A stretch of 64,000 nucleotides of DNA. Origin: Cliona cf. orientalis. Its lineage: Eukaryota > Porifera > Demospongiae > Clionaida > Clionaidae. Location: assembly GCA_963930775.1 (NCBI GenBank), contig OZ005692.1, forward strand, positions 10,087,029 through 10,151,028, in the 5' to 3' direction. The notes under the pieces are model-generated. The model searched no databases and was not told the DNA's origin. It saw only the letters and a list, made by a program, of their open reading frames with translations. The number at the start of each line of letters is the position of its first letter. The stretch's first letter is position 1. Positions 451 to 38,611 of the stretch are shown here, piece after piece. The position numbers and the translations under genes were made by a program.

Positions 451-1032
451 CTGTATCCAAATGTTGCTGGTTGCGTTGGGTGGACAGGTGATGTTGAGAT
501 TATCGCCAAGGTAAACTCTCAAGGGAGAACTGCATATGTGTGGTATGGGACAGAAATGCAGGCAGATTCAATGATAAAGATGAAATCATTCATGATATTA
601 TTATTTGTGATAGACAAGTTGACTAGCACTAATGCACTACAGAGATGTGTTGAAAACAGAAAAGTTATGAAGAGTTTTGATATCACACTACTATTAAAGA
701 CACTTTCCCGGGCTCTACTGGGATTCTCTATTACCTTTTTGCGTTCTGAGTGAAGCATGGGCTTTCATGCTATATTAGATTTTATGTATGCACATGAAAC
801 CCGCTGCATAGCTAAGTGACTATGGCAGAGATGGAGCTAGCATGCATTTATCACGTTGGCATGCATACCACACCGTATCACACTAGTACCGTTACCTTGG
901 AGGGTACGTGGACGAGACGTTTGCAGACCAGGTGAAGTTGACCGTTCTTGTCGCTTTCGACACGGAGATCATGTGCGAGCCCTCTAGCAGCGCGAATAGC
1001 ACCGTCACAACGAAAGATATCACCAAAGTCAT
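451..1032 (-). CDS. Ephrin-like ligand A, 5' part only (runs off left edge)
   Basis: Two exons are visible: 896-1032 (ATG at 1032) and 451-529. Exon 1 encodes a hydrophobic signal peptide (MTLVISFVVTVLFALL) and then the motif FTWSANVSSTYPP. Exon 2, exactly 79 nt, continues SSPLRVYLGDNLNITCPP and ends in SNIWIQ. The order W-(S)SN, then LGD-x-L-x-I-x-CP, is the start of the ephrin receptor-binding domain. Copies B, C and D at 9-19 kb have the same exon sizes and phases (exon 1 ends in phase 2; exon 2 is 79 nt). The expected exon 3, with the EQYEEC-type motif, is not found in bases 1-450, so it should lie beyond the left edge. Ephrins bind Eph receptors at the cell surface; receptor binding here is inferred from family resemblance. 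A plain Ig-like protein is the main alternative. Confidence 0.6.
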
Positions 1033-3670: not shown

Positions 3671-4684
3671 TTAATGTTTAGTGCTACTAATAGACTCCAG
3701 GTATTTGATAACATCGTGGTGATGTTTTCTACGTGCTTGTTCTAGTGGGGTCATGTTGCGCTGCCCTCTAACCTCCACTGGGCACTGGCAGGTCTCAACC
3801 AAGAATTTTACAATTTCAAGGTGCCCATATCTGGCAGCAATATGAAGAGGAGTATCGTTATACCTGTCAGCACATGTAGGATCACAGAACCGCTCTAGGG
3901 TGAGGTACCGAATTACGTTCAGATGTTTATTAGTAGCAGCAAAATGCAATGGGCTTGATCTATTCACATTCAAGCACAAAGGGTCACAGTGGTGCTGTTC
4001 AATGAAATATTTAACAACATGTACATGACCATGTTGAGCAGATGCATGAACACAAGTTCTGTTCTTGTTGTCAATGGCGTTGGGATCACAATTGAATTCA
4101 TCAATTAGGAATTTGATTGCTTCTAGGTTACCAAACATAGCTGCCCCAAACATTGGAATGTGTCCTTCATAATCTCTATCATGGACCACATCCTTGAGTG
4201 GGAGGTATCTGCTCATTTCCCCAGCCAGATAGCGGATGACATCAATGCTACCACTAGCACAAGCATTATGAAGCGCAGTACGGCCATATTTATTACGACT
4301 AAATGGTTCCACTTGCTGCTTTTCGATCAAATAATGGACTAGGAGAAGATGCTTGCATTCTGCCGCAAAATGAAGTGGTGTCCACCCGTCACGGTTCTGA
4401 CAAGCTGCACTGCACCCTCTATCCTCGATGAAGTATCTCAGTATGTTCAAATGACCTTCAATGGCTGCATAATGGACAGCAGTATCTCCATTCTTGTTTT
4501 TCTGCAATGGACTCAAATGTTCCTCTTCAACAAGTTGCATAACTTCCTGTAGATCACCATTTAGTGTGGCAATGTGTAATTTAAATTCATCAGGGTCATC
4601 ACTATCTTTTAATGCCACATCATGTCTCATTCCCGTGGTAAAATCTTCCATATCTCTATCACATATATCCTGGAAAAGGACCAT
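3671..4684 (-). CDS. Ankyrin-repeat protein, single exon, 337 aa
   Basis: A single open frame from a true ATG at 4684 to a stop at 3671. After a charged N-terminus of about 30 residues it is built almost wholly of ankyrin repeats, about nine. Typical repeat cores are GDTAVHYAAIEGHLNILRYF, GWTPLHFAAECKHLLLVHYL, RTALHNACASGSIDVIRYLA and DTPLHIAARYGHLEIVKFLV. The recurring TPLHxAAxxGHxxIVxxL signature is diagnostic. Ankyrin repeats are protein-binding scaffolds; the partner cannot be read from sequence. No signal peptide, membrane segment or extra catalytic domain is visible. Most repeats end in Cys (DRGC, EFNC, QHHC, RFC, CQC), an unusual regularity. A MITE-like element lies directly upstream (4741-4939), so the promoter must lie within or beyond it. 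An upstream 5' exon cannot be excluded. Confidence 0.9.
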   Translation of the reverse strand: MVLFQDICDRDMEDFTTGMRHDVALKDSDDPDEFKLHIATLNGDLQEVMQLVEEEHLSPLQKNKNGDTAVHYAAIEGHLNILRYFIEDRGCSAACQNRDGWTPLHFAAECKHLLLVHYLIEKQQVEPFSRNKYGRTALHNACASGSIDVIRYLAGEMSRYLPLKDVVHDRDYEGHIPMFGAAMFGNLEAIKFLIDEFNCDPNAIDNKNRTCVHASAQHGHVHVVKYFIEQHHCDPLCLNVNRSSPLHFAATNKHLNVIRYLTLERFCDPTCADRYNDTPLHIAARYGHLEIVKFLVETCQCPVEVRGQRNMTPLEQARRKHHHDVIKYLESISSTKH

Positions 4685-4740
4685 AATAATATTATCATGA
4701 TATCATTGGGGCAAGCCTGAGCCTGAGCGAGCCCCACATA

Positions 4741-9415: not shown

Positions 9416-11273
9416 TTACATAAAGGTGAGCAATGATACTGCAATAAGTGATACTAGTAGTGCAGTTAGATTCACTACCGCCAGTGTTCCACTTGACTCA
9501 AGGCCACCAATGTCAAAAATATTATCGCTGATTACCAGTAGCGTGACTGGTGGCCCATCAGTGTATAGCGGTCCCTCTATTCTTGACTCATCGGGAGAAA
9601 CTGGCTTGAGATCTTGATCTGGTGTTTCATCGCCAATTCCAGGTATAAATTCTACAAAAACAATCATGAATGTAGTTAATTTTGATATTGTGCCGCAATA
9701 TTGGCCGATATTGTTATTAGATAGACCGATGAGTTCTCACCTGAACGTACAACTCGCAGTGCCATCCTGAATCCCTTCAAGCATTCCCCACCTGAATTAT
9801 GACGGTCATAGCCTGCTAGAGGTCTGTCACCCAAGGAATAACCTACATGCGGAACATAATTATGCAGAGATGAAACCTCGACATAAAAATAATTATATTT
9901 GCGTGTGTATAATATATTATAGGAAAAATAATAATAATACATAACAAGTGTTTGCTGGAGGTAATGACCCTTGTAAGCTTGACTGTTAATTTTCCATATT
10001 TGGTTATCTAACTACACCCACTGAAATCACTACTACAATGTATGTCATGTCACATCACCGGGATTATAGTAAGGAAGCATAGTGTAGTACGCTGAACTTT
10101 GGGACATCCCCGCCCACACTGATCATGATCGAAACTATAGTAATAATCTTCCTACTATGCCAAAATTAAATACCCTTGAAGTTCAAAATTCAAAGTGGTT
10201 AGTGGTTAGTACAACTTTTGGTCAATAAGATACAATGATGGTTTCCTTGTCCAACTTACTGATAAGATAATAGGTAGTATCCGGTTCAATGCTTAGGGCA
10301 CTCATAAGGCCCTGGGAGTTTTGTCGGAGATTAAGTATGACTTCATCTTGACAAACTTGTCTCGTAGTTGTGTCAGCGATACATCTGGGATTTTCCACGC
10401 CGGTAGCATTACAAGTGCATTCTTCGTACTGCTCGAGATGATTCTACAAGTAAAAGTGAAACGAATGATCATAGATTAATTTTGGTCAGGATGAGAAAAC
10501 CACAAATTTCCAAACTGGAAATAGGAAGTGCATGATTATTTTTTTTTTCGACCACGAATCAGCACAAAAATGATTTCATTATGGAAATTTTCCCCTTCAC
10601 TGAGCACACGATTGTATCGATGAGTTAGTTAGCTACAATGCCGGGCCACAAACATGATGCATGCATGCTAGCTTCGTTAGGTTTGGATTCCAGCATGTAA
10701 ACTCACTTGAATCCAGATGTTGCTTGTGCCATTCGCTGGACATGTGATTTTCAGCATATTGCCCAGGGTCACTCTCAGTGGAGAGCTGCGTAAAGAAGAT
10801 ACATGCGATTTCTGTTGAGCTTGCAATTTAATTTATTGAGCAATACACTATCATACGAATCATTACACTGTAACGATAGACTATTTCCCACATCTTAAGA
10901 TTAATTGATTTTGCCTCCATAGAATTTTCTCAAGTGTAGCTACTCAAAGAACTGTACTATTAAAAACTAATCCCCTCCCCCTTGAATGCAGTCTATTAAA
11001 TTTTAATCTGGTCCCTCATGCATAATCAAATGCAGCTGTTGCTTTTGTTTTACATGCAATGCAGCATTTATATATACTAGAAAATTAATTCTTAGAAAAA
11101 AAATACCTTGGTGGATAAAGAGTTGATACATTGGCTGACCACAGCAGATTAATCACTCCATTTTTATCCGAGTTTCCTGTCCCCGCCGAGATCGGGGACG
11201 TGTGAGAAATTCTCCAAATTCCACTCATTATCAGCACATAAAGAGCCACCAGAGCAAGGAAACTAGTATGCAT
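9416..11273 (-). CDS. Ephrin-like ligand B, GPI-type tail, 255 aa
   Basis: Exons: 11273-11107, 10785-10707 (79 nt), 10443-10260, 9842-9741, 9651-9416; all in phase, 255 aa. After a signal peptide comes LLWSANVSTLYPP, then SPLRVTLGNMLKITCP and SNIWIQ, HLEQYEECTC, RQVCQDEVILNLRQNSQG, DTTYYLISYSLGDRPLAGY and SGGECLKGFRMALRVV. This follows the ephrin pattern: W-SSN, LGD-L-I-CP, E-x-Y near C, C-then-F/L-I-FQ, YY-IS, GG-C-L-x-M-x-V. A linker follows, and the chain ends in a hydrophobic segment (LTALLVSLIAVSLLTFM) with no basic tail, which suggests a GPI signal as in A-type ephrins. Ephrins bind Eph receptors on adjacent cells. Recognition is from motif order and cysteines, not a search; structure comparison would settle it. 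Confidence 0.7.
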
Positions 11274-13039: not shown

Positions 13040-15707
13040 TTATGAAACATACCACAAACATAATAATGCTATTACTGTTAAGTAGTTCAGATTTAATAAT
13101 GTCATTGCGGTTCCGCTTGTGGTAATACCATCTTCTGTGAATTGAGTATCCGGAAACTGTGTAGTCGATGTTACTCCAGCTTTAGTTGATGTCACTGTAG
13201 TAACTAACGGGTCAGTAGTTGGCTCCTGAGTTGTAGTGGATGTTGTCAAAGCTTCAGTAGTCGTTGGAGGATTGTTGGATTGAACGTACAAGACCATCTT
13301 ATACCCCTGTAAGCATTCTCCACCGGATGTGTTTTCACTGTAGCCAGCAAGAGGTCTATCACCGGGCGAATAGCCTACGTATGATTGTGAAAAAGAGTGT
13401 GTCACTAGACCAAAACTGTGATTTCCTTCTGTAGTAATTACCAAATTTCTACACATACTTGTCGGAGGATGGGGCAGAATTTTTGCTAACTTGAAAGAAA
13501 TAAGCAGAAATTTTGCTCCATCCTACACATTTCCTGCCCGCACGCGGTACGAAATTCATATTTTCGTCTAGTGTGTGTTACTAATGGAGCATAGCCTCCG
13601 GCTAAATATTCGTGTTAGCTAAATATTTAAGTAATTTGTCCCTATGCTACCAAAGGCTTATCAACCGTGAGCCATAATATTATAGCTAAGTGGCTAGCTC
13701 GACGAGCCTTTAATAGCACTGATCATGAGACAAATTGTTAAGCTACCGCATGCAGTTCAAAAAGCTCTTGCTACTAGCTATCAGATACAATATTATATTA
13801 TTGTTATTATACATAGTGGATTGATGTGTAAGGCAATAGCACCAATTTTAAGAAGGGCAGGTCAAAATACGTAAAATGACCATGTAGCTACTGTAACATG
13901 CAGCAGCACCTCCATAATAAGATCGTAACGTACTACATTCATGATAGACTCTGGTAGCTTATCATATGGGCTAGTCCATATTAGAGAGGTACCGTGAACT
14001 GCGCCCCATAATAGACCAATGCAACAGTGGCCAGAACTTAGACATCGAACAAAACACTACTTTTTTGTACATGCAGGCGTTGGTGTGTACGTACGGTAGA
14101 GCATTCCGAGATGAACACGCACACACTACACACTACGGGACCGTTACTATAAGGCAGTGGATCTTGGTGCAACAGCTGCACGCTTGTGACAGATCATAAC
14201 AATAATATGACATGTACTAAATTGCTGGCAGTATACATGAAGGTCCCTCAGCTCTGTTTACTATAGAATTTATGAGGTGGCAACTATCTAACATAACTGT
14301 TATAAAGCATGAACGGATAATTTTCACTAGACCAAAACTGTGATTTCCTTCTGTAGTGTAGCTACGTGTTTACCAAAATTTCCTACACAAACTTGTCGGA
14401 GGATAGGGCAGAATTTTCACTAACTTGAATGAAATAAGCAGAAATTTTGCTCTATCCTACACATTTCCTACCCGCACGAAATCCAGATTTTCGTCTAGCG
14501 TTTGGTCTCACACTTGCATGCACATGCAATTTTGTATGCACGTCAAAAACATCTGATGTTGACCTGTCTTATGGTGCTAACAGAAAGTTTTACATAACCA
14601 ATAAAAATGATTCTGGATTTACTACATACTATAGTTAAATTTTAACAATAGAGACTCACTTATGAAGTAATATATTTCCCCAGAATCAAAACTCAGAGCA
14701 GTGGGAAGATCATTTGAGGCTGTGGCGATTTCAAGCAGCACTTCATCCTGGCAAACCTGCCTAGTATTTGTACTGGGAGTGCACAAATTTGTGCTCTCAG
14801 AATAATCTGTACCTCCCTCGTGATAGCTTGAGGTGTTGCAATCACACTGTTCGTACTGCTGAAGATATTTCTGTATGGTGAAATGAGTGGGTGGAAGCGT
14901 GTTCTATCTAATTGGTGATCGTTGTTAATTACGTGGATGTGGTGTGTAATTGAAAAAGATTCCCACTGTCAGATGTGATGATTGGATTCTATGAATGCCA
15001 CACATCACGTAACATAATCATTTAACTAATTGAATTTGCTGAGAGGCCGCCCACCATCACTTTAAAAAAATTGATGTTGCGTGTTCTTTTTTTGTTGTGG
15101 TTATGCTAGTATGTAGTTAGTATAATGGATGTATTAGCTATGCTAAATGAATTATTACATGATCTCAGATTCTGAGCTGAGAATTAAACCAAACATAGAG
15201 GAGAGATCACTATTGTAAGGAAATCCCTTAATTGCCTATTAAAAACTTCAAGATTAAGAGTCTACTCTACTCCTTTCTTACACTGGACTTTTTATCGTTA
15301 TTCAATAGAATCAATGCCTAGATTTCATGCAAATACGTACCTGTATCCAGATATTACTTGTGGCATTCTTTGGGCAGCTAATTTTTAGCAGAGCTCCAAG
15401 TTGTACAGTAAGCGGTGAACTAAAAGATAACATACCAAAATTAATGTAGGTAGCATCAATAAATTTTTTATTTTGTCAGAATTGCTGTAATAAAACAATT
15501 ATACCTAGGTGGATAGAGCATAGACACATTGGAAGACCACTCAAACGCGACTTCTCGGCTTGACGTTGTTGTGGATTCTTCTACATCCACCACGGTCGTT
15601 GACATCGACAGCACATCGCCTGTTGGTGAAGAGGACGCCATTAAGATGTTTAAAATGAGCACCAATACGCTCAGCGCCAACGTCCTAGACATCATCAGAG
15701 GAGTCAT
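13040..15707 (-). CDS. Ephrin-like ligand C, Thr-rich stalk, 275 aa
   Basis: Exons: 15707-15505, 15419-15341 (79 nt), 14870-14660, 13374-13040. Copies B and D have five exons; here the last two are one, so the YSPGDRPLAGY module reads straight into the tail. The signal peptide region (SRTLALSVLVLILNILMAS) leads to a VEEST linker, FEWSSNVSMLYPP, the LGA-L-I-CP exon and KYLQQYEQCDC. The C-terminal half holds GGECLQGYKMVLYV and then a Thr/Ser-rich stalk (TTTEALTTSTTTQEPTT), likely O-glycosylated. It ends in a hydrophobic segment (MTLLNLNYLTVIALLCLWYV), compatible with a GPI signal or a bare membrane anchor. The function inferred is cell-surface ligand for the nearby Eph-like receptors. Intron 3 contains a 170-bp direct repeat. 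The start could be the ATG at 15707 or one slightly downstream (MMSR). Confidence 0.68.
13403..13571. repeat. Direct repeat in ephrin-like C intron 3, left copy
   Basis: About 170 bp starting CACTAGACCAAAACTGTGAT recur at 14325-14499 in the same orientation. Within each copy GGATGGGGCAGAATTTTTGC is followed by its near inverse, AAATTTTGCTCCATCC, so each can fold into a hairpin. The 750 bp between the copies are non-coding. Confidence 0.75.
14325..14499. repeat. Direct repeat in ephrin-like C intron 3, right copy
   Basis: Second copy of the 170-bp unit at 13403-13571, diverged by small changes and one short insertion (GTGTAGCTACGTG). The same internal inverted repeat is kept. Confidence 0.75.
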
Positions 15708-16092: not shown

Positions 16093-16093
<1 letters not shown>

Positions 16094-17241: not shown

Positions 17242-19240
17242 TTATGTAACAATCATTGAGCTTATGAAACACAAAAGTGAAAGTGAAAGTGTCATTTCTA
17301 CACTCAAATTTACCCATGGCAATGCTCCATTGATAGTATTTTCTGTGTCTAAACCTCCTATATCAGTTCTGTTATTCTTCGTGGATGTTGTATTCTGATC
17401 ACGATCATTAATAATGTTATTGACATTTGGTCCTGGACCTGGATATATGTGGTATAATACCATGCAGTCAAATGAGGTAAATAAGATTTAATTAATCATG
17501 TGACTAACCTGAGTTGGATAAGACTGTCACTGCCATTTTGAATCCTTGAGTGCATTGTCCACCTGATGCCCACTTTTTGTACCCAGCCAAACTCTTGTTC
17601 CCCCTGGAATAACCTACACGTACATCCCAAAAGTTTGTATAGGGTAAGTACACAGCAGGTGATCCAATAATATCAACAATGTAATACTATATGGACCGGA
17701 GTAACTATATATAATGATATAATTTGTATATCCCACCTATGATGTAGATCAAAGCTACCACCAGGCCGATATTATTGCCCGGTGGTCAGACTCAGACATG
17801 CACCACACTTAATTGTAGTGCTATTACAACAGTGGGGATATAAAATTATACAAACCAGTTAGATCTAACGCACCCCTATAGCTAGCTACTCTATACATAC
17901 AGTGCTGTATGGAATAATGCACTCGTGCATGCGTAGTCCTTGGGCTTCAATCACTCTCGCGCTGTACGTATGTGATTACTGCACTCATGCATTAATTCCA
18001 TACAGAACTAGTAACATGCAACTATTACTGTTCCTGCACACCTGCACGAATGAGTGTTCTGTATCCTTTCTATTAATTATGTAGCTACATCCCTTGCACT
18101 GTAGTTCTCGGAAACTGGCAGGTTTCTGGTGGACTACGTACTGTACTACCGGTTTGTGATGGCTCTTCATGCTGGAAACTCCCATGTATGGCAGTGAAAC
18201 ATAGTAGCTACTCTTGTACTCTCATCTTGAATTCATACTGAAAATCACACAATGGGTTCAATAGTAACTATTATCTCTAACTGAAACAACTTTCAAGATT
18301 CAGCTTTGACCTGGTACACACACATGCACGTGCACGCACACAATATAGGAATCCAAAAATATTGACCGATAATATAATAATTATTGTGCTGAGCAAGCTA
18401 GGGCTTTGAGACTCTAAAATTAGCTGCCTAATATAGTATCTAGTACGCACCCACTTATACCAATAATTATTATGTGTACGTAGTGTTATTGTATTGACTT
18501 ACTTATCAGATAAAATGTTGTATTCTGTTGAAAACCGAGAGCACTGTTGAGATCTTCCGAATTTTGAGTGATTTCGAGAATCACCTCATCCTGACAGACG
18601 TGCCGCACTGTAGTCGTTGGGTCACATTCTTTGGAGTTCTCTGCTATCGTCGAGGCCGCAGCACTGCAATTACACTCCTCATACTGTTCAAGATGATACT
18701 GTATAGTGTAAAGAATAAGACTGAAGCATCAAAGGCTATTCACATGTGAATGCATGCATGTGCTATAGGCATGTCTTTCAGTGTATTTAATTAATACGTT
18801 AGTTGTACCTGTATCCACACATTGCTGATGCCATTAGCTGGGCAGGCTATGTTCAGAACATCACCAAGCTTTACTCTCAATGGATTGCTGAAATTAATAA
18901 TATAAACACAATAATTATAATATGGCTAGTTGCTGTAGCTAGTAAATCAGTTTACGTTTATAGCTAGCGTATACCTGTTGAAACAACTAGACTATAGCTA
19001 GCTATAGCTACTTAATCTAAGTCTTCATCATAATAATATTGAAGCATCTTTAAAGTGCTACTAGCACTGTCATGCGGGTCAATCTTACCTTGGTGGATAT
19101 GTGGCTGACACATTAGACGACCACTGTATGCGGTGGATCTTTCTTCTACTGCTGGATAGCGATGATTGAGAGCTGGCACATTGCAAGTTCCATAGTATGG
19201 AGAATATTATGGTGCTCACAAGCATAAATAAATTAACCAT
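17242..19240 (-). CDS. Ephrin-like ligand D, GPI-type tail, 242 aa
   Basis: Exons: 19240-19089, 18887-18809 (79 nt), 18698-18503, 17613-17509, 17438-17242; in phase, 242 aa. The signal peptide is followed by IHRIQWSSNVSATYPP, then NPLRVKLGDVLNIACP, SNVWIQ, HLEQYEECNC, RHVCQDEVILEITQNSED, NTTFYLISYSRGNKSLAGY and SGGQCTQGFKMAVTV. WSSN, LGDVLNIACP, FYLIS and GG-C-x-M-x-V are the clearest ephrin-type signature of the four copies. A Gly/Pro/Asn linker (GPGPNVNNIIND) and N-glycosylation motifs precede a hydrophobic C-terminus (MTLSLSLLCFISSMIVT), as in GPI-anchored proteins. The last exon could begin at either of two AGs near 17438; both keep frame. It is the copy nearest the Eph-like receptor gene. 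Confidence 0.72.
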
Positions 19241-19764: not shown

Positions 19765-20583
19765 TTACCATGAGTATCCATTGTCACCGATGATTGATTC
19801 TTTTCTGTCGATAGTGGAGGCATTAGTCATGTCCATCCCTTGTGTCGACATGTCTTTATACGTAGGATTCTCAATGGTCATACGTATTGTATCCCCCAGC
19901 GGTCTCTGAAGAGTTGCTGAACGAAACATCGTGTCTTGAATCTCCCTCTTAGCTTTCTGGCGTCTCTTCCTACACCCTCGACAGGTCAGTATCATGGTGT
20001 ACCCAAGGAAGAAGACTACTATGCAGAGGCAGCTCGCTCCACCCAAACCTATACCTATCAGGGCGAGGATTTCTGTACTGATCGGCAATAATGTTGTAGC
20101 TGTAGTTCCTCCGATTGTAGTTTCAGAATCAGCAACTGTTGTGGTTTCTGTGAAATACGTAGTTTCAGGATGATCAGTGCTAGGAACTATAGTACTGGTG
20201 ACTTCGTCACTTGTCATCGGTGTGGGAGCAACTGTAACTGTTAAGGAACTGAGGCTGATTGATGTTCTGGGCATCAAGGAGGTTACACTTGACATTTTGG
20301 ATTCACTTGGGACAATAGTTGTGAACCGCTGCTTTTCGGCTGCTGAGCTAGCCAGCAAATCCTGACTACTAGCCAATGTACTCGAGAGTTGACTAGCCAA
20401 TGTAGTCGATGGTTGAATGGTCATCTCAGGGAATATTATGTCTACAGCAGTGCTAGCTGTAAGTATAGGGGTTGACACCACAACATTAATGACATCAACT
20501 GCAGTAGAAGTACAATCTGAGATAGAAAGTGTTTCAGCAAAGCATAGGTACACCAGCAATAACTTGACTGTCTCTCCACCCAT
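19765..20583 (-). CDS. Mucin-like single-pass membrane protein with YxxM tail, 272 aa
   Basis: One exon from ATG at 20583, with an in-frame stop upstream. Residues 1-22 form a signal peptide (KLLLVYLCFAETLS). About 25-165 is a Ser/Thr/Val-rich ectodomain without Cys pairs, repeating short words such as SQLSSTLASSQ and TTTVADSETT, typical of an O-glycosylated stalk. About 170-200 is one membrane span (LALIGIGLGGASCLCIVVFF), followed by a basic stop-transfer (CRKRRQKAKR). The 60-residue tail holds NPTYKDM, which fits YxxM (docking site for the p85 subunit of PI3-kinase when phosphorylated), and ends in NGYSW. No known ectodomain fold is seen. It lies between the ephrin-like genes and an Eph-like gene, all on the same strand. 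Role inferred only: cell-surface adhesion or signalling. Confidence 0.8.
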   Translation of the reverse strand: MGGETVKLLLVYLCFAETLSISDCTSTAVDVINVVVSTPILTASTAVDIIFPEMTIQPSTTLASQLSSTLASSQDLLASSAAEKQRFTTIVPSESKMSSVTSLMPRTSISLSSLTVTVAPTPMTSDEVTSTIVPSTDHPETTYFTETTTVADSETTIGGTTATTLLPISTEILALIGIGLGGASCLCIVVFFLGYTMILTCRGCRKRRQKAKREIQDTMFRSATLQRPLGDTIRMTIENPTYKDMSTQGMDMTNASTIDRKESIIGDNGYSW

Positions 20584-20817
20584 ATTCCATTTAATAGTCT
20601 GAGTTTCAACTTAACTTAAATTTGAAAACACCGTATGTTACTTTTGAGAGGCACTACGCAGCTATCACTCTGTACGTAAGACTAGCTAGCTACTGCATGA
20701 ATTTTAGCTTAGATACTACTAGATATGGCTAATTAGCGGTGTTGACATTCTTCACCTTTATGGAAAGTTAGTATCGTGAAAGTAGATACACTTACATAAG
20801 ACGGGATTCAATTATAG

Positions 20818-21632: not shown

Positions 21633-24600
21633 TTATTGAGTAATATTGATGAATATCTTCTGATTTATACCATTAGCATCCGGTATCTCGCAACGATACC
21701 TCCCAGTCGGAGAAATGGTACCCTCTCTCCTGTTCAGTCGAATCAGTTGTTCCCCTCTGTCACGATAGAAATCCTGTCTGGCGCTATTGATTGGAACACG
21801 AACACCGTGGGGATAATAAAATTCTCCAAAACGGTTTGGCTGAGTGCCGCAGCAGTCCTGTTTGTCGGTCTTACAGAGAAGGGCATCGTCTCCTTCACCG
21901 ATGTTAAGAATACTGACCATACTGTTGTTCTCGTATCTCTCTTTGTTCAGTTCAAAGTACACAGCTGTGTTATTGGAAAGAATATGAACACATCAGTACT
22001 TGAGCTATAGAATTTCTCAACTAATTATCATACAAATATTTGTAACTTCCTATAGTTTGGGGGGGGGGGGGGGGACGTATACGTATAGGGGATCTATGAC
22101 TGAATGTATGTCAGGTCCTCCAGCTAGTAGCTAGACTGGAGAACTCAGACTATAGCTACATTCTTTATAATTGCTTACTTGATGGTTGAGATTTATAGCA
22201 ACCTGCATGTACAAAAATTTAATAATTAATTGCAGTTGTTTAGATAATTTATTGTATCACATACCAACTTCCTTTGGTGAGCTGTAAGGGCCAATGTTGG
22301 TGGAAGATACAACACGTACCTGTTTCAATACCAATTATGGTCTGAATAATACTCTATTACCATAGCTATACATGTAGTCTTCCATTTTAAAACTCACACC
22401 TGAACTGCAGTTGATTTTTTCTCAAGAAGATCTTTATCTGACTCTAGAAAGTTGTGAAAGGTTCCCCTTGTATCGACACGTCTTTCCACCGTCTCGTTAG
22501 TGTCTGGGTTAAACAGACGCACATCGTAGCCACTGATATCCCCACAGGAGACATTAGGAGAATTTCGCCAGTTGACGTGAGTGCAGTGGGGCTCAATTTC
22601 AGGTGGAGTCAAAACCGGCCCACTAGTAGGGGGAACAGCTGCAGAATAATTTTGAAGGTTAGTGCAAGTTATTACTCAGTACTATAGCCTTGTGCATTCC
22701 CATGTCCTGTAATCATATTCCCAGCTTCTGAATCCCACACATTTCTCATAAAAGACTATATAGAGAGTCTATAATAATATAGCATGAGGACTGCATGGGC
22801 CAGGGTATATATTGTTTAATTCAGTTACCTATTGTGGTAATCGAAGGAGGGACAGTTGGAGTGTACGATTCTGCATAACAATGAAATTTAATATTATTGA
22901 TAAAGTTATGCATACCAATAATATGTCACTGAAAGGAGTCTCATCTATAATCTCAATGACAAACATTAATTTTATTCACAGGCCGAAATTTATACCTGTT
23001 GTTGTCGGCGGTGCTGTAGTTGACTCTATGGGGCACTTTGAAGAATCAAACCAAATTTCTGTGTAATCAACGATGGATGTGGTGCCCCCACTTATTAACT
23101 GAGCCTGCAAAGCACAGGGATAATATTGTTATTCAGTATTATTATGCCTGTAGATACAGTAGATTGTATAGCTGCAGTTTAGTCCTGAAGTAATGTGTGC
23201 ACCAGACTAGCAAGATAGAGAGCCTACACTTATATTTATTGTCTCCTGACCAGTTTAGCTATACACATGTATTGGTAAATTGGGATATGCTAAGATGAAT
23301 GAATTATTCTGCTTACAGCAATAGTGACTGTAGAATAGTCCTCTGAAAAGTTTGCTATGAATCTGTAAGCTCCAAACGTTATGTCACCACCACCACTCTG
23401 AACTGAAAATTCAACACTTCCGCTCTCCGTCACATTTCTGCTAAATACCATATTCCTTCTGTTGTTATTCGTAGGATCCTCTCTTCCCAGTAGTTGTAGC
23501 CAGAGTGTGGGGGTAGGCTTCGCGCATGGCAAAAACGTAAGATCGAACAATTCGACGAAATTTTTCAGAAATGAGTTCTGGCTGAAGCACTGCACGCCAG
23601 AGCAATCAGATTTCCTCACACACTCCAGCTCTCTGGTGTTGATGCTGTTGGAAATTAAGTTATCAAGGCTCTCGCAGGCAAGCTGATCTGTATAATAAAC
23701 ATAATAATTGACCTACTAAAGGGAGCTATGAGGATTAAACTCCTTTAGCATGGGATAATGTCATGAAATGGTCTACAATGTACACATTACCAGAATTCTT
23801 AGTAGCTGCAGCCGCTACTGTGCTTTTTAGTGTAAGCCATGCAATATTTACAAAGAGAGTGATAGCTATATTATATGACATCTACCAGATAAAGTAATAA
23901 TGTGACCTTTGATTGTAAGGAACATTATTACCCCAAACTTTGATCGGATCATCATTGATGGAGTGCCATAAATGGAGATAGTTATTGTGAGTCTCAAGAG
24001 TACAACTTGTGCCATTCAATGTTGCAGGCCTACACAGAATGGCTATATACCATAATATTATATGGGCCCTCAAAGGCACAATGAATGGAAGCCATGGGAA
24101 GATATTTTATCAAGGGCCGTGTATCATTATACTTTGATCCTCACACTACACTGTCAATAGAGCGATTTTTTCCCACAATAGAGTAACAGGTGCTGATCCA
24201 AAAAATTTAGTACATGGAAGGTGGCTGACAGGGTGGCTACCCATAGTAAATCATACTGGTGTAAAGGGGGGTGGCTGGTTAATAATGGTGAACATCTCCT
24301 ATACTACGTTGCATAAAAGAACTGGTGAAGGGGGGGGGTGGCTAGCCACCCTATCCACCCCCCTGGATCAGCCCCTGAGTAACTAAAAGAACTGTTGACA
24401 ATAATATTAACTGTAGCTGAACGTTAATGTATATGTATATAATTTCAGCTGGCTTACGTACTTAAGACGGTACACTTTTCATTCTCTCTGTCGTATCCAT
24501 ACCCTGGTAAGCAGTGACATTGACCTCCGACAGGTGGAAACCATGAACCTCCCGAGAGGCAGAGAAGGGAAAAATGGGTATTATTATTTCTCGTTTGTGC

Positions 24601-25444
24601 GTTCTCCACACAATATCCCCTGACAACAGAAGATATACCAGCCACTATCGTCCCTGGAATACGGGTGGGATCGTTGCGTGAACTAGCTGGACAGACATGA
24701 TAGAAAACTAGCAGTCTAGTCACAACAATGCAAGAGTTTTCGTCTTGAATGGCAAAATAGAAAGATGAATGTTCAGAGTTGAAATTAGTGACAATAGTTT
24801 CATTCATTCTAGTCTCGGCAGTGTCCGACGATGAAACTCTTTCCACTTGCCGATAATTACTGATATTTCTTGCTGCGTTACCATTCTCTGTAGATGTCTC
24901 ATAGATGTGTGTGTTGAAGGTTTGCTGGCAGTTCAAGGTGGTGTCACAGTTGCGGAATTCAAACTCTATCGTCACGCTGACTTGAGACAGCCTTGTTCCA
25001 TTGACTGTCCTGTTGATGAGCTGTGTGATCAGCCAGTTGTCCTGTGGACCAGCACTGAACCCACACACTTGGACAGACTGTTCACATGGACGGTTCGAAT
25101 TCTGAATCCACTGTTAAGTAGGCATGCATGGTACATAAGATATACAAAATTTAATATAGAAAATTTATACTGTATGAACTTACATTGGTTGTTAATGATG
25201 GACTATTTCTCGTATCATTGTCCACCTGGTCCCACACAGCTCCAGTGTGGGGAGGGAGAAGGTTTTGATAGTTCCAGGAGTCCATCAGCACCCTCATGTT
25301 GGTGGAGTAGGCTGGTGTTGGAGCAACTCCTAGTGGTCTTAGCTCTTCACACAGTGTCTCCTCATCTCCTGGAGCCACGCCAGATCCAGGATTAGCAAGC
25401 ATCAAAAGCTGAACTAGCAGTGCCACCCAAAGAAAAGACGCCAT
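21633..25444 (-). CDS. Eph-receptor-like ectodomain with FN3 and Ig-like parts, 727 aa
   Basis: Exons: 25444-25184, 25110-24458, 24029-23932, 23687-23317, 23104-22996, 22870-22829, 22638-22400, 22319-22265, 22202-22179, 21964-21633; phases agree and sum to 728 codons. A signal peptide (FLWVALLVQLLMLA) is followed by an Eph ligand-binding domain: VLMDSWNYQ, VQVCGFSAGPQDNWLI, VSVTIEFEFRNC, SFYFAIQDENSCIVVTRLLV and FYHVCP match Eph landmarks. Then comes the first cysteine-rich module (GYCVEN, GSWFPPVGGQCHCLPGYGY). The second Eph cysteine module is missing. Instead there is an unrecognised Cys-rich region (KSDCSGVQCF), a Pro/Thr linker, one FN3 domain (EIEPHCTHVNW, SGYDVRLFNP) and a terminal Ig-like domain (GTISPTGRYRCEIPD). 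No membrane span or kinase is seen, so it is probably secreted. The join of exon 2 to exon 3 and the exon 3 donor are the weakest steps; two adjacent genes are possible. Confidence 0.68.
22058..22073. repeat. Poly-G run
   Basis: Sixteen G in a row within an intron of the Eph-like gene; length is likely unreliable in assembly. Confidence 0.8.
24187..24377. mobile_element. MITE-like element, CAGGTGCTGATCCA termini
   Basis: CAGGTGCTGATCCA at the left is mirrored by TGGATCAGCCCCTG at the right. Inside are GGTGGCTG/CAGCCACC-type repeats and poly-G. It sits in intron 2 of the Eph-like gene. A partial relative (CTTGGATCAGCCTCTG) lies near 33534-33550. Confidence 0.65.
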
Positions 25445-26116: not shown

Positions 26117-26148
<32 letters not shown>

Positions 26149-28761: not shown

Positions 28762-28769
28762 TATAAATA
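28762..28769 (+). promoter_or_regulatory. TATA box of array gene 3
   Basis: TATAAATA about 95 bp before the ATG, in the same conserved upstream block as array gene 2. Confidence 0.55.
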
Positions 28770-28863
28770 TTGGTAGCTATCAGCAGCTACGTATATGAAG
28801 CACACTTACTCTGTCCATGCTGTTGCCTGATACCTTGAGCTCTGCACTGCATGGGATATCAGT

Positions 28864-30249: not shown

Positions 30250-30459
30250 TATCAGATACTATGACAGAATTTTCTTTTTCTGCTTATCTCTATTAGAGCA
30301 ATAAATTAAATTTATTTCTACTATATACAGTGGCACCTATAACTACATAATAATAATTATGCAGTAGCAGATGGTTCTTCTGGACTGACTTATTAATTAT
30401 TCATTACATGTACAGTTCAAATTATGACAATGTCATATGAGATGAATTTGTCATTGAGC

Positions 30460-30467
30460 TATAAATA
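30460..30467 (+). promoter_or_regulatory. TATA box of array gene 4
   Basis: TATAAATA about 95 bp before the ATG; third copy of the conserved upstream block. Confidence 0.55.
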
Positions 30468-30561
30468 TTGCATGGTAGCTATCAGCAGCTACGTATATGA
30501 AGCACACTTACTCTGTCCATGCAGTTGCCTGATACCTTGAGATCTGCACTGGGATATCAGT

Positions 30562-30701
30562 ATGGCTTTTCTCAGAACGATTTTATGTACCAGTCTCGCA
30601 TTCCTACAGCTAGTTGCTGCTCAGCCAACCCCTCTATATCCCCCAAAGCTCTCCAACTCCTTCTCTTCAAAAGTGAGTGACCTAGACTTATAGTATGTAG
30701 C

Positions 30702-30794
<93 letters not shown>

Positions 30795-31832
30795 GTGTAT
30801 GTGAGTATGTGGCATGAGTGAGTGTGTATGTGTATGTATCCCCCGGCCACATGTCAAGTCTACATAATAATATAAGTCAGCTAGAGTGTAGTGAATCGTA
30901 TTATTATGCTGATATGCACGCATTCCTAGCTGTCTATAGTATAGCTCTATACGGATCTATTCCATGCATGCAATATACAGATCACAATACTGAACAGTGG
31001 CTCAGAGGTGACATGTAAGTATGCATACATTTATAATAATATTATTTTGTCAGTGTATGTAGAATTAAATTTTCTCTCTCAGCTGAAATGTTTGTCGACT
31101 ATGGACTAAACAAGTCCTTGCAGATTACCAACCTCGGGACTGAGGGCGCAGCCAAGGTATATTTGCTCACCATTGGAGAGGAAAAGAAAACTTATCGATA
31201 TCTTGAGTGAGTATGACGGCTTATTGCTCAAAGTAGCTACGTTCATTGTCCATCATAGAATTGGAACAATCCCAGATCCGTACTTATTAATTCAGAGAGT
31301 TAATTGATTTGTACTGATAAATCTGTATGGTTAAGTTACTATTCGCCAATTCTGAATCTTGATATAGACCATTTGATTACTGTACCATTGATCCTGAGCC
31401 GGGCGTTGTTGCTCCAATGTGGTCTTGGCTGGATCAGAATCATGCCTACTGCAGGGAACAAGTATTTTTTTATAAGGGAGAACTTGTCGCAGTGTTTCAG
31501 ACATATGAGGTACATAATCAATGTCATAATTATAATAGCCTTGTCCCAGCCCAATCATTCAGATTTTCATTATTATTCAGAATTATTATAATACTACTGG
31601 AGTTATGAAAGAGGCAGCATTTTCAGGCCCGGGTTCAGATCTCAAGACACCAGTTTACTTCGTGAGCAGCACTGGGGATGGGCCGATGATTTTTGAAGAC
31701 TACAAGAACAGCACTCCACCAGAGTCGATGTTTACAATCCCAGAGAGTTGTAAGAAGAAACCTCTACCAACCATCCCACTTCCGCTCACTAACTCTCTTG
31801 ATTTTTTGAAGATGCTCAGGACACTTAATTAA
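30562..31832 (+). CDS. Secreted ependymin-related-like protein 4, 220 aa
   Basis: Exons: 30562-30672, 30981-31014 (34 nt), 31083-31206, 31368-31509, 31581-31832, in phase. Signal peptide as in member 3; then QPTPLYPPKLSNSFSSK, EMFVDYGLNKSLQITNL, PFDYCTIDPEPGVVAPMWSW, DQNHAYCREQVFFY, VAVFQTYE, EAAFSGPGSDLKTPVYFV and MIFEDYKNSTPPESMF-TIPESC. The added Cys in NHAYC breaks the two-Cys rule of its sisters and could leave a free thiol. Intron 1 holds a (GT)n run of about 100 nt where gene 2 has a short one, so the same ancestral microsatellite has expanded here. Confidence 0.68.
30704..30800. repeat. (GT)n microsatellite
   Basis: About 48 GT units in intron 1 of array gene 4; homologous to the short GT runs in introns 1 of genes 2 (about 27475-27500) and 3 (about 29232-29248). 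Confidence 0.9.
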
Positions 31833-32008
31833 TTATTAATATCTTAGCCTGCTAGCTAACTGTTGATTAGTTTTTCATTCATTGTGCCCAATTCCAGTAT
31901 AAATGTAAAGCGTGATGGAGATGGGTGATAACTATGCATTGGGTACCAAAGGACAAACAATTATAATGGTCACATGACTGACCATAATTAAGATATTAGC
32001 TGACAGAA

Positions 32009-32892
32009 ATGACAATGGCATATTTCGGAGTGACTGCTCTCCTAGCCAATTTAGCATTGGTTTTTGTTGTCAGTACTAGTGGACAAGCTCCTCCAGTGAG
32101 ACCAAGACTATCTGAATCTTTTTCAGCTGAGGTTAGTGAATTATTATACTAACTATAGTAGCAACAAAAATAACAAAAGTTTCCACTTGTTTTAGTACAC
32201 CAGATCTGGATTGGGGACAGAGCTGAGAGGTATGTTTCTTTACTGAGCAGCACCAATTATTGCCAGGCATGGACATCAATATTTTTTATAGGTAGTATCT
32301 ATCGCATCTATGAGGAGGGAAAGCAGTTTCAAGTAGAGCAGATGGGAGGCCATGACGGCTTGGTGAACACTCTTACAAGGGCCGACTTAAAAACTCAGTA
32401 CAAATACTTTCTGTGAGTATTACAACAACTATTTACTAGTTAGGGGAGCTATTATAAGTATCTTTGAATTTTTGACCATTTAGCTATAGCTTTTCATATG
32501 AATTTCAGGCCATTTGATTACTGCTCTAGCACCAGTGATCCAAGCATTAGTGTGGTTCGAGCTTGGACATGGATTGACAAGGCAAAGTACGTCGGCCTGA
32601 AGGAATTCAAACAGAGGAGAGTGAACGTCTGGGCTTACAATGTACGCATCTCTATTTAAAGTTAAAACATATTTGATAGTTGCATAATAAAATTGAAATT
32701 TTTTTTCAGGACACACAGAAGAATGTATACAGTGAGATGGGAGTGTCAGCAGAGAATGCAAACGAGCCTGTCTTTATTTTTGATGATTCAGCAACGTCCG
32801 ATTCATTTGGATTGACAGTGTTTCAGACGTTCATAAACACCGCCTCTCCGCCATCGAAATTTGATGTCCCAAAAATTTGTGAACAGAACTGA
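32009..32892 (+). CDS. Secreted ependymin-related-like protein 5, 197 aa
   Basis: Exons: 32009-32131, 32196-32229 (34 nt), 32292-32412, 32509-32641, 32710-32892, in phase. Signal peptide (ALLANLALVFVVSTSG), then QAPPVRPRLSESFSAE, SIYRIYEEGKQFQVEQM, YKYFLPFDYC, VVRAWTWIDKAKYVGL, RVNVWAYND, VYSEMGVSAENANEPVFIF and LTVFQTFINTASPPSKF-DVPKIC. The chain ends five residues after the last Cys, so it lacks the extended tail of members 2-4. FQTFIN-PP-F-P-C is the best match in the array to the ependymin-type C-terminus. It is well diverged from 1-4 and closer to 6 and 7. The 34-nt exon 2 and all phases are kept, which supports common descent. Confidence 0.68.
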
Positions 32893-33234
32893 TTTCCTAC
32901 GCAGATACATTGAATAATAATAATAATAATTATGTGCTGTGTTTAATGACAATGCTGCACCTCTATGTGGGAGTAATAGCTAATGGATATGTATAGTCTT
33001 AGTGGACTCTGCATGTGACTGCTTCATATCCAAATTAGGAAGTCAGTGAAATACATTCATAACTGTTACACTGAAGTGTTAATTACTCACATGATGGCTA
33101 TACAATGTGTCTCTATGGATACAATAATCTAGATGCACGCTATTGAACTGTAGGTAACACTCCACAGACTTTAGGTGTTTGGGACCATTAAAATTTTAAG
33201 CATCATTCTAGCGGTTTCTTGTTCAAATTAAGGA

Positions 33235-34478
33235 ATGGCTCTCAGTTTTGTTTTGGCTGCTCTCTGTTTCTCACTTCTGCAACTCAGCAGCGGACAACCA
33301 ACTCCTACAAGACCAGTGTTGTCTGAATCTTTCTCCACTAGAGTGAGTATATATTTTGCACTTAGCTATTTCCTTAACGTCACAATTATTAACTTTTCAT
33401 GTAGATGACTCGTGTTGGTGCAGGACAAGAGGCTTCCAGTAAGTTAATTAACAAAGTCTGGTGTAGAAATTAATTTTTACAAGAAGGGCCTATAATACTA
33501 TCTTGGGGTCACCCTACATTCTCCCCACCCCACCCTTGGATCAGCCTCTGTATTCATGATAGAAATTGTTGCTTAATGTAGCCGAAATTTATCGGGACTA
33601 TGTGAAAGGCAAGCAACGCCAGGTGGAGAGGTTGGGAGCTGGGAAGACGGTGGATGGATCCATCAACGTTATTTTGGACGTCACGACGAAGAAAGAGTAC
33701 CAGTACTTTGAGTAAGTCTTTCATAATTATAAATAATTTTGCAGAAATTTTGTCCAATTTCAACTATCAGTAACATTCTGAATCAGTATAAAGTGCACAA
33801 CATGGAAATAATATTAGTTTAGCTGTAGGAAGCCTTGATCAAAAAGTGCCTCGAGATCACCTTCTGCATGTGCATTTCTATACTACAGGCCCTATGGATA
33901 CTGTGCAAGTGTTTCAGTTCCATCCATCAAGCTTCTTCCACAGTGGGCATTCGTCGCTGTAGCAAAATACAAGGGACCTGCAACTTTTAATCAGATGAAA
34001 GTGGACGTCTGGAGCTACAATGTAAGTTCATAAATTTTTTGCTAAAATACTTGGATTTCACATTGAGATCTTTTTTCCTAGCAATCATTGTCCACATTTT
34101 TAGCCATTAATCTTCTTCTCTCTGGCTGCTTAGTTATTAGCTATGATAACAAATTAAAGAGAGTACATCGATCTAACATATAATTATAGTAATTGTTTCT
34201 TTACTTCTTTGCAGGATACAAAGACCAATATCTACTATGAGCTTGGTGTTTCCACTGACACTCCTAAAACACCGGTATTTCTGTTTGAAGACGAGGCTGG
34301 ATTCGCCTTTGGGATATCGACCTTTGAGGAGTACACCAATGGTGCACCTGAGGCCACAAAGTTTACAGTTCCATCCATTTGCAAGGAAAAGCCGGCTTGG
34401 TTTCACAACAACTCACCAGCGCGCAACTACACCGGGATTTCAGCTTTTGAGAGGCTCACTCCACTATTCCACGTTTAA
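33235..34478 (+). CDS. Secreted ependymin-related-like protein 6, 222 aa
   Basis: Exons: 33235-33342, 33405-33438 (34 nt), 33582-33711, 33889-34021, 34215-34478, in phase. Signal peptide (LSFVLAALCFSLLQLSSG), then QPTPTRPVLSESFSTR, EIYRDYVKGKQRQVERL, EYQYFEPYGYC, LPQWAFVAVAKYKGP, KVDVWSYND, IYYELGVSTDTPKTPVFLF and ISTFEEYTNGAPEATKF-TVPSIC. A basic and Ser-rich tail of about 30 residues follows. It resembles member 5 most in its middle exons. It is expected to be secreted, and function is unknown beyond the family guess. A partial repeat (CCTTGGATCAGCCTCTG) sits in intron 2. Confidence 0.68.
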
Positions 34479-34852
34479 AACTTGACCAACCTATGTACCT
34501 TTCGAGTTAAAAATATTGCTCTAGATCTGTTTCATATTTATTTTGAGTTTTTTTTTTTTAATATTCTTCCAATTGTTATTATTGTTGTGTATAGTGATGT
34601 TGCTAAGAGTGAATCGGTCAAGACATTTTTGGGATGAAGTGTGATGACTATATTCATTAACACTATCGATCACATGCAATTTTGAACGATAGTCATAGAA
34701 TGTCAACCTCCAGATGGCAATAACATACAGCGTGACCTTATGAATTTTAACTTCCAGTAGATTTTGTTCTTATTTGAATCAGTGACAAATACTTCAATAC
34801 TCATAATAAATTACAGTCTAGCTTGCTCAGTGATCTTAACTCTTGACTTGCT

Positions 34853-36080
34853 ATGCTACTATCAGGAGTATTTGTGGCTGCCTTTCTTTTCCATTTCACG
34901 AGGGGAGCTCTCAACATAGCCCCTCCTAAACCCCAGCTATCATCCTTTACAGCAGAGGTAAGTTAATTAGTAGCTACAGGCTTCATATCTCAAATTTGGT
35001 ATAAATTTGACTCAATCCTGATAGTTATTATTGATTTTATGCAGTTTTCAGTTCTTGGTCCTGGAACAGAACTAGAACATGGTATGATTTTCATCTCAAC
35101 CCCAATATCATGTGGGAAATTCTACTCAATAATAATATTATTATTGTGATTGTACAGTGCGTTACTATTCCAACACTGAAACCAAGAAGCAGCTGCAAGT
35201 GCTTAACCTTGGAGGGCAGGAGGACGACATCCAGCTCTATACATGGCTCATGGTCGAACACAACAAGACTATTGAGCACGACAACATAAAGTAAGATTTA
35301 TTTTAAAAACTGCTCAGTCACTTGATTAAAATTTTCTGGGATATATAGGAATGAGTATAGCATGCATCATAGCTAGTGTATAATATTATCATAATAACTC
35401 GATCACCACTCTGTTTAATAATATCATGCTTTATGATCTGTATGACTGTGGGAGGTATTTAGTAAATCTTAGACTATCTATAATAATATAACTACACAAA
35501 GCATGCTACTTGATACTTAGTGCACGGTTCAATCTACAGACCTTTCGATTTCTGTACTGGAGTGACCGCACCATCGTCACCTGGAGATGAGAATATTTGG
35601 TTCTGGCTGAAGCATGCTACGTACAGTGGGACTAAGACATTCCTTGAGAATACTGTTGATATCTGGGTTTATGACGTAAGTCTTGGACTACCAGTATATC
35701 GCTGCCACACAAGGCACGGTTAAGTTATCATAACCTTGCTTTGCTACCAGATTAATATTACGACTACCTTGCATGTTGTGATCACCTTATGGTTCTGCTG
35801 GTATATATCACTCATGCAGGATAAAGTGAATGAAAACTACTATCAAGTTGGTGTGCTTTCGAACGATGCAAACCGACCACTCTACTTTTTGAGCTCGACT
35901 GCAATAGGGTTGACAGTGTTTGATTCCTACGAGAATTCCACTCCACCAGAATCCGTCTTTGATCTTCCCTCAAGCTGCATCAGTAACCAGAAATCTTCTG
36001 TAGAAGCCAAGCCTACTGAATACAAAAGTAGCATGAATGTATTCAATTTTAATGGTGTAACACGAGATACACGATTGTAA
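34853..36080 (+). CDS. Ependymin-related-like gene 7, frameshift in signal exon
   Basis: Exons: 34853-34958, 35045-35081, 35158-35290, 35540-35675, 35820-36080. Exons 2-5 join in phase and match the array: VRYYSNTETKKQLQVLNL, PFDFCTGVTAPS, NIWFWLKHATYSG, TVDIWVYD, YYQVGVLSNDANRPLYFL and LTVFDSYENSTPPESVF-DLPSSC. Exon 1 starts well (MLLSGVFVAAFLFHFTRG), but a run of five C at 34920-34924 shifts the frame. The family motif PPKPQLSSFTAE then lies in a frame that has a stop just before it, and the ATG frame stops soon after the run. One C too many would explain both, so this is either a sequencing or assembly slip in a homopolymer or a young null allele. The good state of the other exons favours the former. 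Confidence 0.6.
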
Positions 36081-36258: not shown

Positions 36259-38611
36259 ATGGAATTTTTAATTCTTCACTTGTTAATTGCTGGTGTGGCA
36301 TCTCTAAACATGTCGTATCGAGGTCAGTTCGTAGAGGAAACGTGTGAAGAGTTGAGAGCACAAGGAGCTGCTCCAACACCAGCCTACTCCACCAACATGA
36401 GGGTGCTGATGGACTCCTGGAACTATCAAAACCTTCTCCCTCCTCGCACTGGAGCTGTGTGGGACCAGGTGGACAATGATATGAATAATGAAGTTGAATT
36501 AACAACTAATGTAAGTCTGAATGGCATTCTATTGGAAGTTTCGTTCGGCAATGATTATTGATTAATATTAGTCAAAGTATTGTTTGTTGTATTCTTGATC
36601 ATAGTGGATTCAGCAGTCCAATACTCCATGCCAACAAACTGTTCAAGCATGTGGATTCAGTGCTGGTGCGCAGGACAACTGGCTGATCACACAGCTCATC
36701 AACAGGACAGTGAATGGAGCAAGGCTGTCTCAAGTCAGCGTGACGATAGAGTTTGAACTGCAAAACTGTGACATCACCTTGAACTGCCAGCGAACCTTCA
36801 ACACACACATCTATGAGATATCTTTTGAGAGTGCCACTGGAGCTAGGGACACCGCAAATTATCGACAAGTGGACAGGATTTCACCAGATATCACCACTGG
36901 GGCTAGAGTGAATGAAACCATCGACTTAAACTTTTCTACCGATCACTCATCCTTCTACTTTGCCATTCAGGACGAGACTGCTTGCATGGTAGTCACAAGA
37001 TTGATGATATTCTACTATGTCTGTCCCGAAGATATTACAGATTTGGTCATCCGTCCTGAGACCATAGCCCCTCCCATAAGCCGGGAAAGCTCACCACATC
37101 GAGTAACCGCTAAATGTGTTGCTAACGCATCCCCTGTAGTGGACGAAATTACAAGACCTGTAGTAGATTGTGCTGAAAGAGGAGCATGGTATTCCCAGGA
37201 TGAACTAGGCTGCAGCTGCGATCATGGCTACTTACCGGATAAGGATAGACAGAAATGCAAAGGTAAAGAGTTATTTAATACATGATGATCATGATATTCT
37301 CCATGGTTGAGCAAGTTAGCATGAAATTAAAGTAATACGTAAAGGACACCTTTTTGGCATTGTTTATGCAGTAGGATCCAATATTCAACAATCATGGTCA
37401 TATGATATTGTACAGTTATGATTTTAAGCACTCGTTATTCCTTATCTCAAGTTATGGTAGATCTCTATCAATTTCCCAAACTCTGTGACAACAATTTTCA
37501 CAACACATACTCATACTCTGTACAGGTTGCTCTGAGGGTCAGTACTTTTCTACATTTGCTGGTACGTGTGTGGACTGTCCAGAAAACAGCTTCTCCGTCA
37601 CTAATAGCAGCTCTTCTCTGAAGTGTATCTGCATGCTTGATGGCTACCATTTCGTACCAAGAGGCAGTGATCAGAATGAATCTTGTGGTAAATTGTATAA
37701 TATAAATTTTAATAGTATTAGGAAGTATGGCACTGTATTGCAAACGTAGTAGCAAAATTAATATTATGTATACTCATTGAAAGGTGTTTACACTACACTA
37801 TAGGAATTTCCTTCTTGAGATAAGCATATGCGTTTACAATGTTTATTATTATGCTCTGGTAAAATAAATAATATTTGGGACAACATTTATATCAGATCGG
37901 ATCATACAATCATTTTAAATTTATATTTACACCCATACACAATCTATTATAGTGGCTACCGTTATGAAAGAGAAATCAACTTCATCCCCAAGTTTGTTGA
38001 TAACACTTTCCATATTATTACTCCTTATCACTTTGATCGGAGCTGTGACAACCATATTATTGTTTCTATACAAGAGATATCAAGTCAATCAGGATGCTGC
38101 CCACGGACACAATGAAATCGAACAGCCAACTGGAGTTAATGTGCTGCAAGAAGAAACAGTCGCTGGACCAAATGGAGTCCAGCTGCGACCTTTACCACTG
38201 CTTCCTGCGAGGCAGATATCAACCGTATCAACGCGATCATACGTGTCAGCGAGGTCATCTGCAACTTCCTTCAGATGGAACTTAGCGTATTTTCTCTTCA
38301 AGGTCCTCGGTTCACCTCCTGGTGACACAGAATCACCAGCGGCTGGTACGGGACCCAATGATCAGACGTTTGAGGGTAGAGATCGGGTAGAGAGAGATGA
38401 TATTCATGATTCCACAGCATCAACTGCTGCACATACAGTGAATGTGCGGCCACAGATGACTGAGACTGGACTAGATTCTCCACAGTATGTTAATATTAAC
38501 AACTACGAACTTTTTGGATCTGGAGAGCAAAGAGATGATCATGAGGATAGAAATGACAGATCTACGACTGATGAATTCAACAAAGGGGAATATTTGCATG
38601 TTCTTTCGTAG
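36259..38611 (+). CDS. Eph-like receptor without kinase domain, 576 aa
   Basis: Exons: 36259-36510, 36605-37262, 37526-37687, 37953-38611, in phase. Signal peptide, then an Eph ligand-binding domain (about 25-205): VLMDSWNYQ, VQACGFSAGAQDNWLI, VSVTIEFELQNC, SFYFAIQDETACMVVTRLMI and FYYVCP. The cysteine-rich region follows the Eph plan: AKCVANASP, RGAWYSQDELGCSCDHGYLP, GCSEGQYFSTFAGTCVDCPE, NSFSVTNSSSSLKCICMLDGY. No FN3 repeats are seen. About 372-397 is a membrane span (LLITLSILLLLITLIGAV), then a KRYQ stop-transfer and a tail of about 180 residues. The tail has no kinase, SAM or PDZ-ligand motif recognisable to me but has three tyrosines near the end: QYVNI (Grb2-type YxN, Tyr536), NYELF (542) and EYLHV (571). 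A stop in the last exon closes the gene. It may signal by docked adaptors or act as a decoy. Confidence 0.85.

Follow-up and report, generated by a model that had tools for sequence, protein, structure and literature searches.

A tandem array of four ephrin genes with flanking Eph-type receptor genes, some of them kinase-less, in the sponge Cliona cf. orientalis

Ephrins and Eph receptors of sponges have already been described, as the available parts of three papers show (PMC6485061, PMC10176882, PMC8242945). According to the accessible text of Krishnan, Degnan & Degnan 2019 (PMC6485061), 15 of 100 sponge receptors with an Eph ligand-binding domain (LBD) were full-length, with both LBD and kinase, and sponge Eph models without some of the domains were called fragmentary or partial. 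The same text describes an LBD-FN3 protein without a kinase from the choanoflagellate Salpingoeca urceolata, which its authors termed a fragment (PMC6485061). Pinacocytes of Spongilla express an ephrin, in the portion available of PMC10176882. Among vertebrate receptors, EphB6 and EphA10 are kinase-dead Ephs that are proposed to act through other Ephs, and kinase-dead Ephs have been traced back to jawed vertebrates (PMC6993872, accessible sections).

We analysed a 64,000-nucleotide stretch of the genome of Cliona cf. orientalis (the window), together with its surroundings, and propose, with a probability of roughly 0.55, that four GPI-anchored ephrins stand here in a tandem array flanked by Eph-type receptors, some of them kinase-less, and that this locus would work as set out below. 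As in the sponges covered by the available text of PMC6485061, the ephrins are of the PF00812 type, some with GPI-type ends, and their W, Y-Y and four cysteines fit the printed pairs; the Eph LBDs likewise have the two printed cysteine pairs, and LBD clades are expanded in demosponges. Unlike the models in that text, the receptors described here are complete kinase-less genes at the genome level and stand beside an ephrin array. Their kinase-less status covers R2 and R4, the two receptors modelled to their ends. Judged against the accessible sections of PMC6993872, R2 and R4 resemble EphA10 and EphB6 in having an Eph ectodomain without catalytic output, whereas EphA10 and EphB6 retain an inactive kinase domain and R2 and R4 are without kinase, SAM and FN3. 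They also resemble the alternatively spliced kinase-less Eph forms of the same source in being LBD receptors without a kinase, but here the whole gene as modelled is kinase-less. In the papers searched, most of them only in part, neither a mixed Eph/ephrin array nor a complete kinase-less Eph gene of a sponge came to light. Partial Ephs of sponges have thus far stood as fragmentary models in the text available (PMC6485061); complete kinase-less Ephs beside ephrins would show a non-kinase Eph/ephrin branch in an early-branching animal, in which the wiring of this ancient contact system may differ. The locus also offers a defined set of ligands and receptors for asking what role Eph signalling plays in an animal that lacks a nervous system.

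The ephrin array

The earlier note had read four minus-strand genes (A-D) as built on the ephrin plan; all four are present in the window, and the reading held. Exon 1 of ephrin A (896..1032) encodes a signal peptide and WSAN and ends at the donor CCAAG/GTAACG, exon 2 (451..529) encodes LGDNLNITCP and NIWIQ, and exons 3-5, which complete the gene, lie upstream of the window (-600..-786, -4714..-4830 and -5461..-5678), all on the minus strand. Ephrin B occupies 9416..11273 on the same strand (exons 11273-11107, 10785-10707, 10443-10260, 9842-9741 and 9651-9416), followed by ephrin C at 13040..15695 (minus strand; exons 15695-15505, 15419-15341, 14870-14660 and 13374-13040) and ephrin D at 17242..19240 (minus strand; exons 19240-19089, 18887-18809, 18698-18503, 17613-17509 and 17438-17242), the last acceptor of which is uncertain in position by 6 bases. 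All introns of A-D are GT-AG and the phases common to the genes are 2, 0, 1 and 1; exons 4 and 5 are fused in ephrin C, unlike A, B and D. A short repeat, (T)EGNHSFGL or KGNHSFGL, occurs in the introns of ephrin C (14322-14354 and 13400-13432) and also at a locus on contig C1 (L061). We rejected the (T)EGNHSFGL stretch as an exon because A, B and D splice without it.

In profile searches with the Ephrin family (PF00812, cut-off 25 bits), the spliced proteins of A, C and D scored 30.9 bits (E 2.9e-7), 30.1 bits (E 5.4e-7) and 40.3 bits (E 3.8e-10), while ephrin B scored 24.0 bits, one bit under the cut-off. Ephrin D, the one ligand used as a query against PDB sequences, returned 12 listed matches up to E 10, and 11 of these were ephrin-B2 (best E 0.002); the twelfth was an antibody chain at E 1.1, which leaves ephrin-B2 as its sole PDB relatives at E < 1. 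Among 152 candidates from a large protein collection, no homologue of ephrin D was found at E 0.01. There was no sign of an ordinary Ig fold in A-D at the sequence level.

Alignment of the four proteins showed the motifs W-S-[SA]-N, L-G-x-x-L-x-I-x-C-P, Y-[DE]-[EQ]-C, C-[QH]-D-E-V, [YF]-Y-[LF]-I-S and S-G-G-[EQ]-C in every member. The four disulphide cysteines of ephrins and their interface aromatics (W; F; YY) are defined in the available text of PMC6485061. As assigned by eye on our alignment, all four cysteines and the interface W are present in each of A-D, the interface YY or FY likewise, and the interface F in three of the four, with I in its place in B. Hydrophobic C-termini suited to GPI anchors had been claimed for B-D; they were seen there and in the completed A as well, and the last 17 positions are free of charged residues in all four proteins; the tails are putative GPI-type anchors. 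Profile and PDB searches, the matching exon structures and searches across the whole genome support the reading of A-D as ephrins that share one array with Eph-type receptors. Their pairwise identity is 43-53%, and with ephrin D taken without its last exon, dN is 0.43-0.56 and dS is 2.7-4.4 (saturated) in five of the six pairs and not computable in one. These values indicate that A-D are old copies which have been kept under constraint.

Receptor genes beyond both ends of the array

Read 5' to 3' on the minus strand, the order of the genes is R1, D, C, B, two unrelated genes, A and R0. The four ephrins thus make up a 25-kb array with Eph LBD genes beyond both ends, which bears out the earlier proposal that ligands and Eph-type receptors are co-located. 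The interval separating ephrin A from ephrin B holds an ORF with ankyrin repeats (3674-4702, minus strand; Ank_2 E 5.8e-66) and a gene at 7159-8350 (minus strand) that gives weak death-domain and TRADD-like matches below the cut-off.

Both Eph LBD genes reported from the window, R1 and R2, were confirmed by the Ephrin_lbd profile at E about 1e-16; their placement a few kilobases from the ligands did not stand for R2, a plus-strand gene separated by 17 kb from the closest ephrin. R1 (24462..25444, minus strand) has a signal peptide, the Eph LBD (Ephrin_lbd E 9.7e-17) and CRD (Ephrin_CRD E 5.5e-7); its modelled part, short of the 3' exons, consists of exons 25444-25184 and 25110-24462, with an uncertain last donor. 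At 19768..20610 (minus strand), 0.5 kb from ephrin D, there is a Ser/Thr-rich one-exon ORF with a signal-peptide-like start, a transmembrane helix and an NPTY tail, for which no Pfam family was found. This ORF could be the final exon of R1 or stand as an independent one-exon gene; we did not accept a model joining it to R1, since the phases are indecisive and the ORF has a signal-peptide-like start of its own.

R2 (36259..38611, plus strand) is a complete gene of four exons (36259-36510, 36605-37262, 37526-37687 and 37953-38611) that reads in frame through to a stop codon in the tail exon and encodes 576 amino acids: a signal peptide, the LBD, cysteine-rich parts, a transmembrane helix and a tail of 180 residues. 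Ephrin_lbd (E 2.5e-16, 61 bits) is the only Pfam family matched by the whole protein at E 0.1. When the ectodomain was compared with PDB sequences, all 35 matches listed at E <= 0.001 were Eph receptors, and the best of them, EphA4 (E 1.7e-20), spans the LBD, CRD and first cysteine module. All four disulphide cysteines of the LBD align by eye; the CRD aligns with that of EphA4, yet has no Pfam match at E 0.1. The best 50 of 73 PDB matches at E 0.001 to the predicted structure of exon 2 were all Eph, for a fold of low confidence (pLDDT 60 with seven sequences and 45 with two). R2 is reached past a tandem array of about seven related multi-exon genes on the plus strand (26240-36080), most of which end in a PPxSxFxxPxxC-like sequence. 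They are reminiscent of ependymin-related proteins, and two of the seven C-terminal ORFs were searched, with no Pfam match.

Four more receptors lie outside the window. R0, the third receptor, is about 9 kb outside it and 3 kb past the last exon of ephrin A, and R3, R4 and R5 are found about 100 kb beyond R2. R4 is complete, with five exons, correct splice sites and a stop codon in the tail exon after the transmembrane helix; Pfam gives the LBD, CRD and weak matches to cysteine modules.

A possible but doubtful alternative is that the locus is a by-product, an old chance neighbourhood shaped by tandem duplication in which the kinase-less receptors are truncated, near loss and without joint function. 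Damage among the receptors speaks for it. R3, whose exon 1 is frame-shifted and whose exon 2 ends without a donor, is probably a pseudogene by its sequence, and the LBD of R4 retains three of the four conserved cysteines (LNSTQ versus LNC in R2 and R3) and scores 36 bits versus 61 bits for R2. An orphan match to LBD exon 1 with no exon 2 match, at window coordinates 150221-150394 (outside the window, on C4, the contig of the array), is likely a pseudogene remnant. The tails of R3 and R4 (dN 0.133, dS 0.185) are under weak constraint, which favours this alternative for that pair and, together with the damage to R3, suggests that part of the receptor set may be decaying. Moreover, a protein exon query (6 matches of 9 candidates) found six ephrin genes genome-wide, four of them in this array, and for the other two (C8:4137305 and C10:6928709) no LBD match is listed closer than 700 kb; linkage of ephrins and receptors is therefore not general. 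A whole-genome PF00812 search, in which 1 candidate was scored, found nothing, probably because ephrin exons are short. Against a by-product, R2 and R4 are open over four and five exons, their splice sites are correct and their tails long, the ephrins are old copies under constraint, and receptors past both array ends are improbable under random placement: when a 25-kb interval is placed at random, the probability of an LBD exon no more than 10 kb away is 0.0018 for one side or both and 0.0001 for both, in a post hoc test that was made after the linkage had been seen and whose 23 targets include the C4 receptors.

Allorecognition loci typically keep matched pairs linked. A self/non-self locus, with ligand and receptor co-inherited as matched alleles, would agree with the linked ligand and receptor genes, the receptor expansion and the damaged copies, but the age and constraint of the ephrins argue against it and we consider it very unlikely.

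Eph kinases elsewhere in the genome

The receptors had been described as Eph-like, a picture that has to be amended for R2 and R4: both end without a kinase and so are not receptor tyrosine kinases, and Pfam searches of the whole proteins found no FN3, kinase or SAM. A search of 204 kb around the array with the Eph kinase of this genome gave no match below E 0.061. We also searched the same 204 kb of C4 with a full Eph, P0003, a relative from the protein collection that has LBD, FN3, kinase and SAM. All six LBD genes were found, with cysteine modules for three of them, and there was no TM-juxtamembrane, kinase, SAM or FN3 match at E 0.01; the FN3 and intracellular parts of P0003 gave nothing at E 1. 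As a positive control, P0003 detects FN3, juxtamembrane and kinase exons in locus L060 on contig C8, and since SAM falls outside L060, the absence of SAM from the 204 kb is a result without a positive control.

An Eph-type kinase does occur on C8, where there is a PF14575 match at C8:5537266 and L060 reads as a transmembrane helix, an Eph juxtamembrane segment and kinase motifs. We infer that this kinase belongs to the LBD 16 kb upstream at C8:5.521 Mb, because the LBD of P0003 groups with that LBD and because P0003 and L060 share 77-97% identity over the juxtamembrane and kinase exons. At least 23 LBD exons, some of them partial, were found genome-wide, and 18 of the 23 were used in the LBD tree; C8:5660232, C6:1690449, C6:2255245, C6:10762320 and C16:5399703, which are partial pieces or close copies, were left out. 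In this tree, the clade with the C8 5.521-Mb LBD and P0003 (support 1.00) holds none of the six C4 receptors. With 150 of 1521 candidates scored, an Eph kinase exon at >=66% identity was found in at least four places, all on C8, and an Eph-type juxtamembrane exon at >=60% identity in two places among the matches listed, both on C8. A PF07714 kinase search scored 119 of 2511 candidates and carries no weight on kinase absence. After the LBD loci at C8:5.52 Mb and C1:0.70 Mb, no transmembrane or kinase exon was found in the next 2 kb and 2.5 kb, respectively. Eph-type kinase exons with 66-76% identity to the C8 Eph also lie at G000:C8:1175736-1184289, with no LBD exon among the matches listed nearby.

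It is extremely improbable that these genes encode ordinary Eph kinases and that distance, mis-assembly or alternative splicing hides their kinase exons, for although long introns are possible and 16 kb separate the LBD at C8 5.521 Mb from the next Eph kinase exons found, the tail exons of R2 and R4 stop after the transmembrane helix, the 204 kb hold no Eph-kinase-like match and the two listed juxtamembrane exons are both on C8.

A possible contact system

On our preferred reading, that of a linked array of GPI-anchored ephrins and partly kinase-less receptors, the ephrins on one cell would engage receptors on its neighbour, both the kinase-less ones and the kinase Eph. The kinase-less receptors could damp signalling by holding ephrin without firing and by competing with the kinase Eph. 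Alternatively, their tail tyrosines might be phosphorylated by other kinases, either of the Src type or, as has been suggested for vertebrate EphB6 and EphA10, by the kinase Eph when both kinds of receptor cluster. Either route would tune adhesion versus repulsion between cells, and the linkage would allow joint inheritance and regulation of the ligand and receptor sets.

The tail of R4 contains four [ILVAST]xYxx[ILV] motifs versus 0.55 expected (shuffle p 0.001), for a motif class that was picked after this tail had been seen; the same class gives p 0.055 in the R3 tail. The tyrosine sequences of the R2 tail are YVNI, YELF and YLHV, with two Yxx[ILV] versus 1.1 expected (p 0.31) and no [ILVAST]xYxx[ILV]. 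The excess in R4 thus supports recruitment of kinases by the tail, whereas the tyrosines of R2 are candidates only. The candidate YxxV/I motifs repeated in the R4 tail resemble those of ITIM/ITAM receptors, from which R4 differs in its Eph ectodomain, and since the R2 tail is not enriched, we did not accept membership of this immune type. More tentatively, and in our view unlikely, the locus could be a self-contained, linked ephrin/Eph module whose kinase-less tyrosine-motif receptors signal by recruited kinases, as lymphocyte receptors do; if true, such a contact sensor would have arisen in an animal that has neither nerves nor adaptive immunity.

LBD exons elsewhere in the genome are found in other surroundings. 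At C8:4848863-4855363 (L035, L059), an LBD gene is followed by FN3 and Calx-beta exons, and the LBD is possibly joined to Calx-beta, a domain known from sponge aggregation factors. Divergent LBD genes on C6 and C17 (L016, L017, L018) are followed, as judged by eye, by a cysteine module and FN3-like and Ig-like exons. Finally, in the public protein records P0001, P0002 and P0004, which are from relatives, the intron that separates LBD exons 1 and 2 seems to have been translated, with extra residues before WIQ, and their lengths of 334-349 amino acids are probably annotation artefacts.
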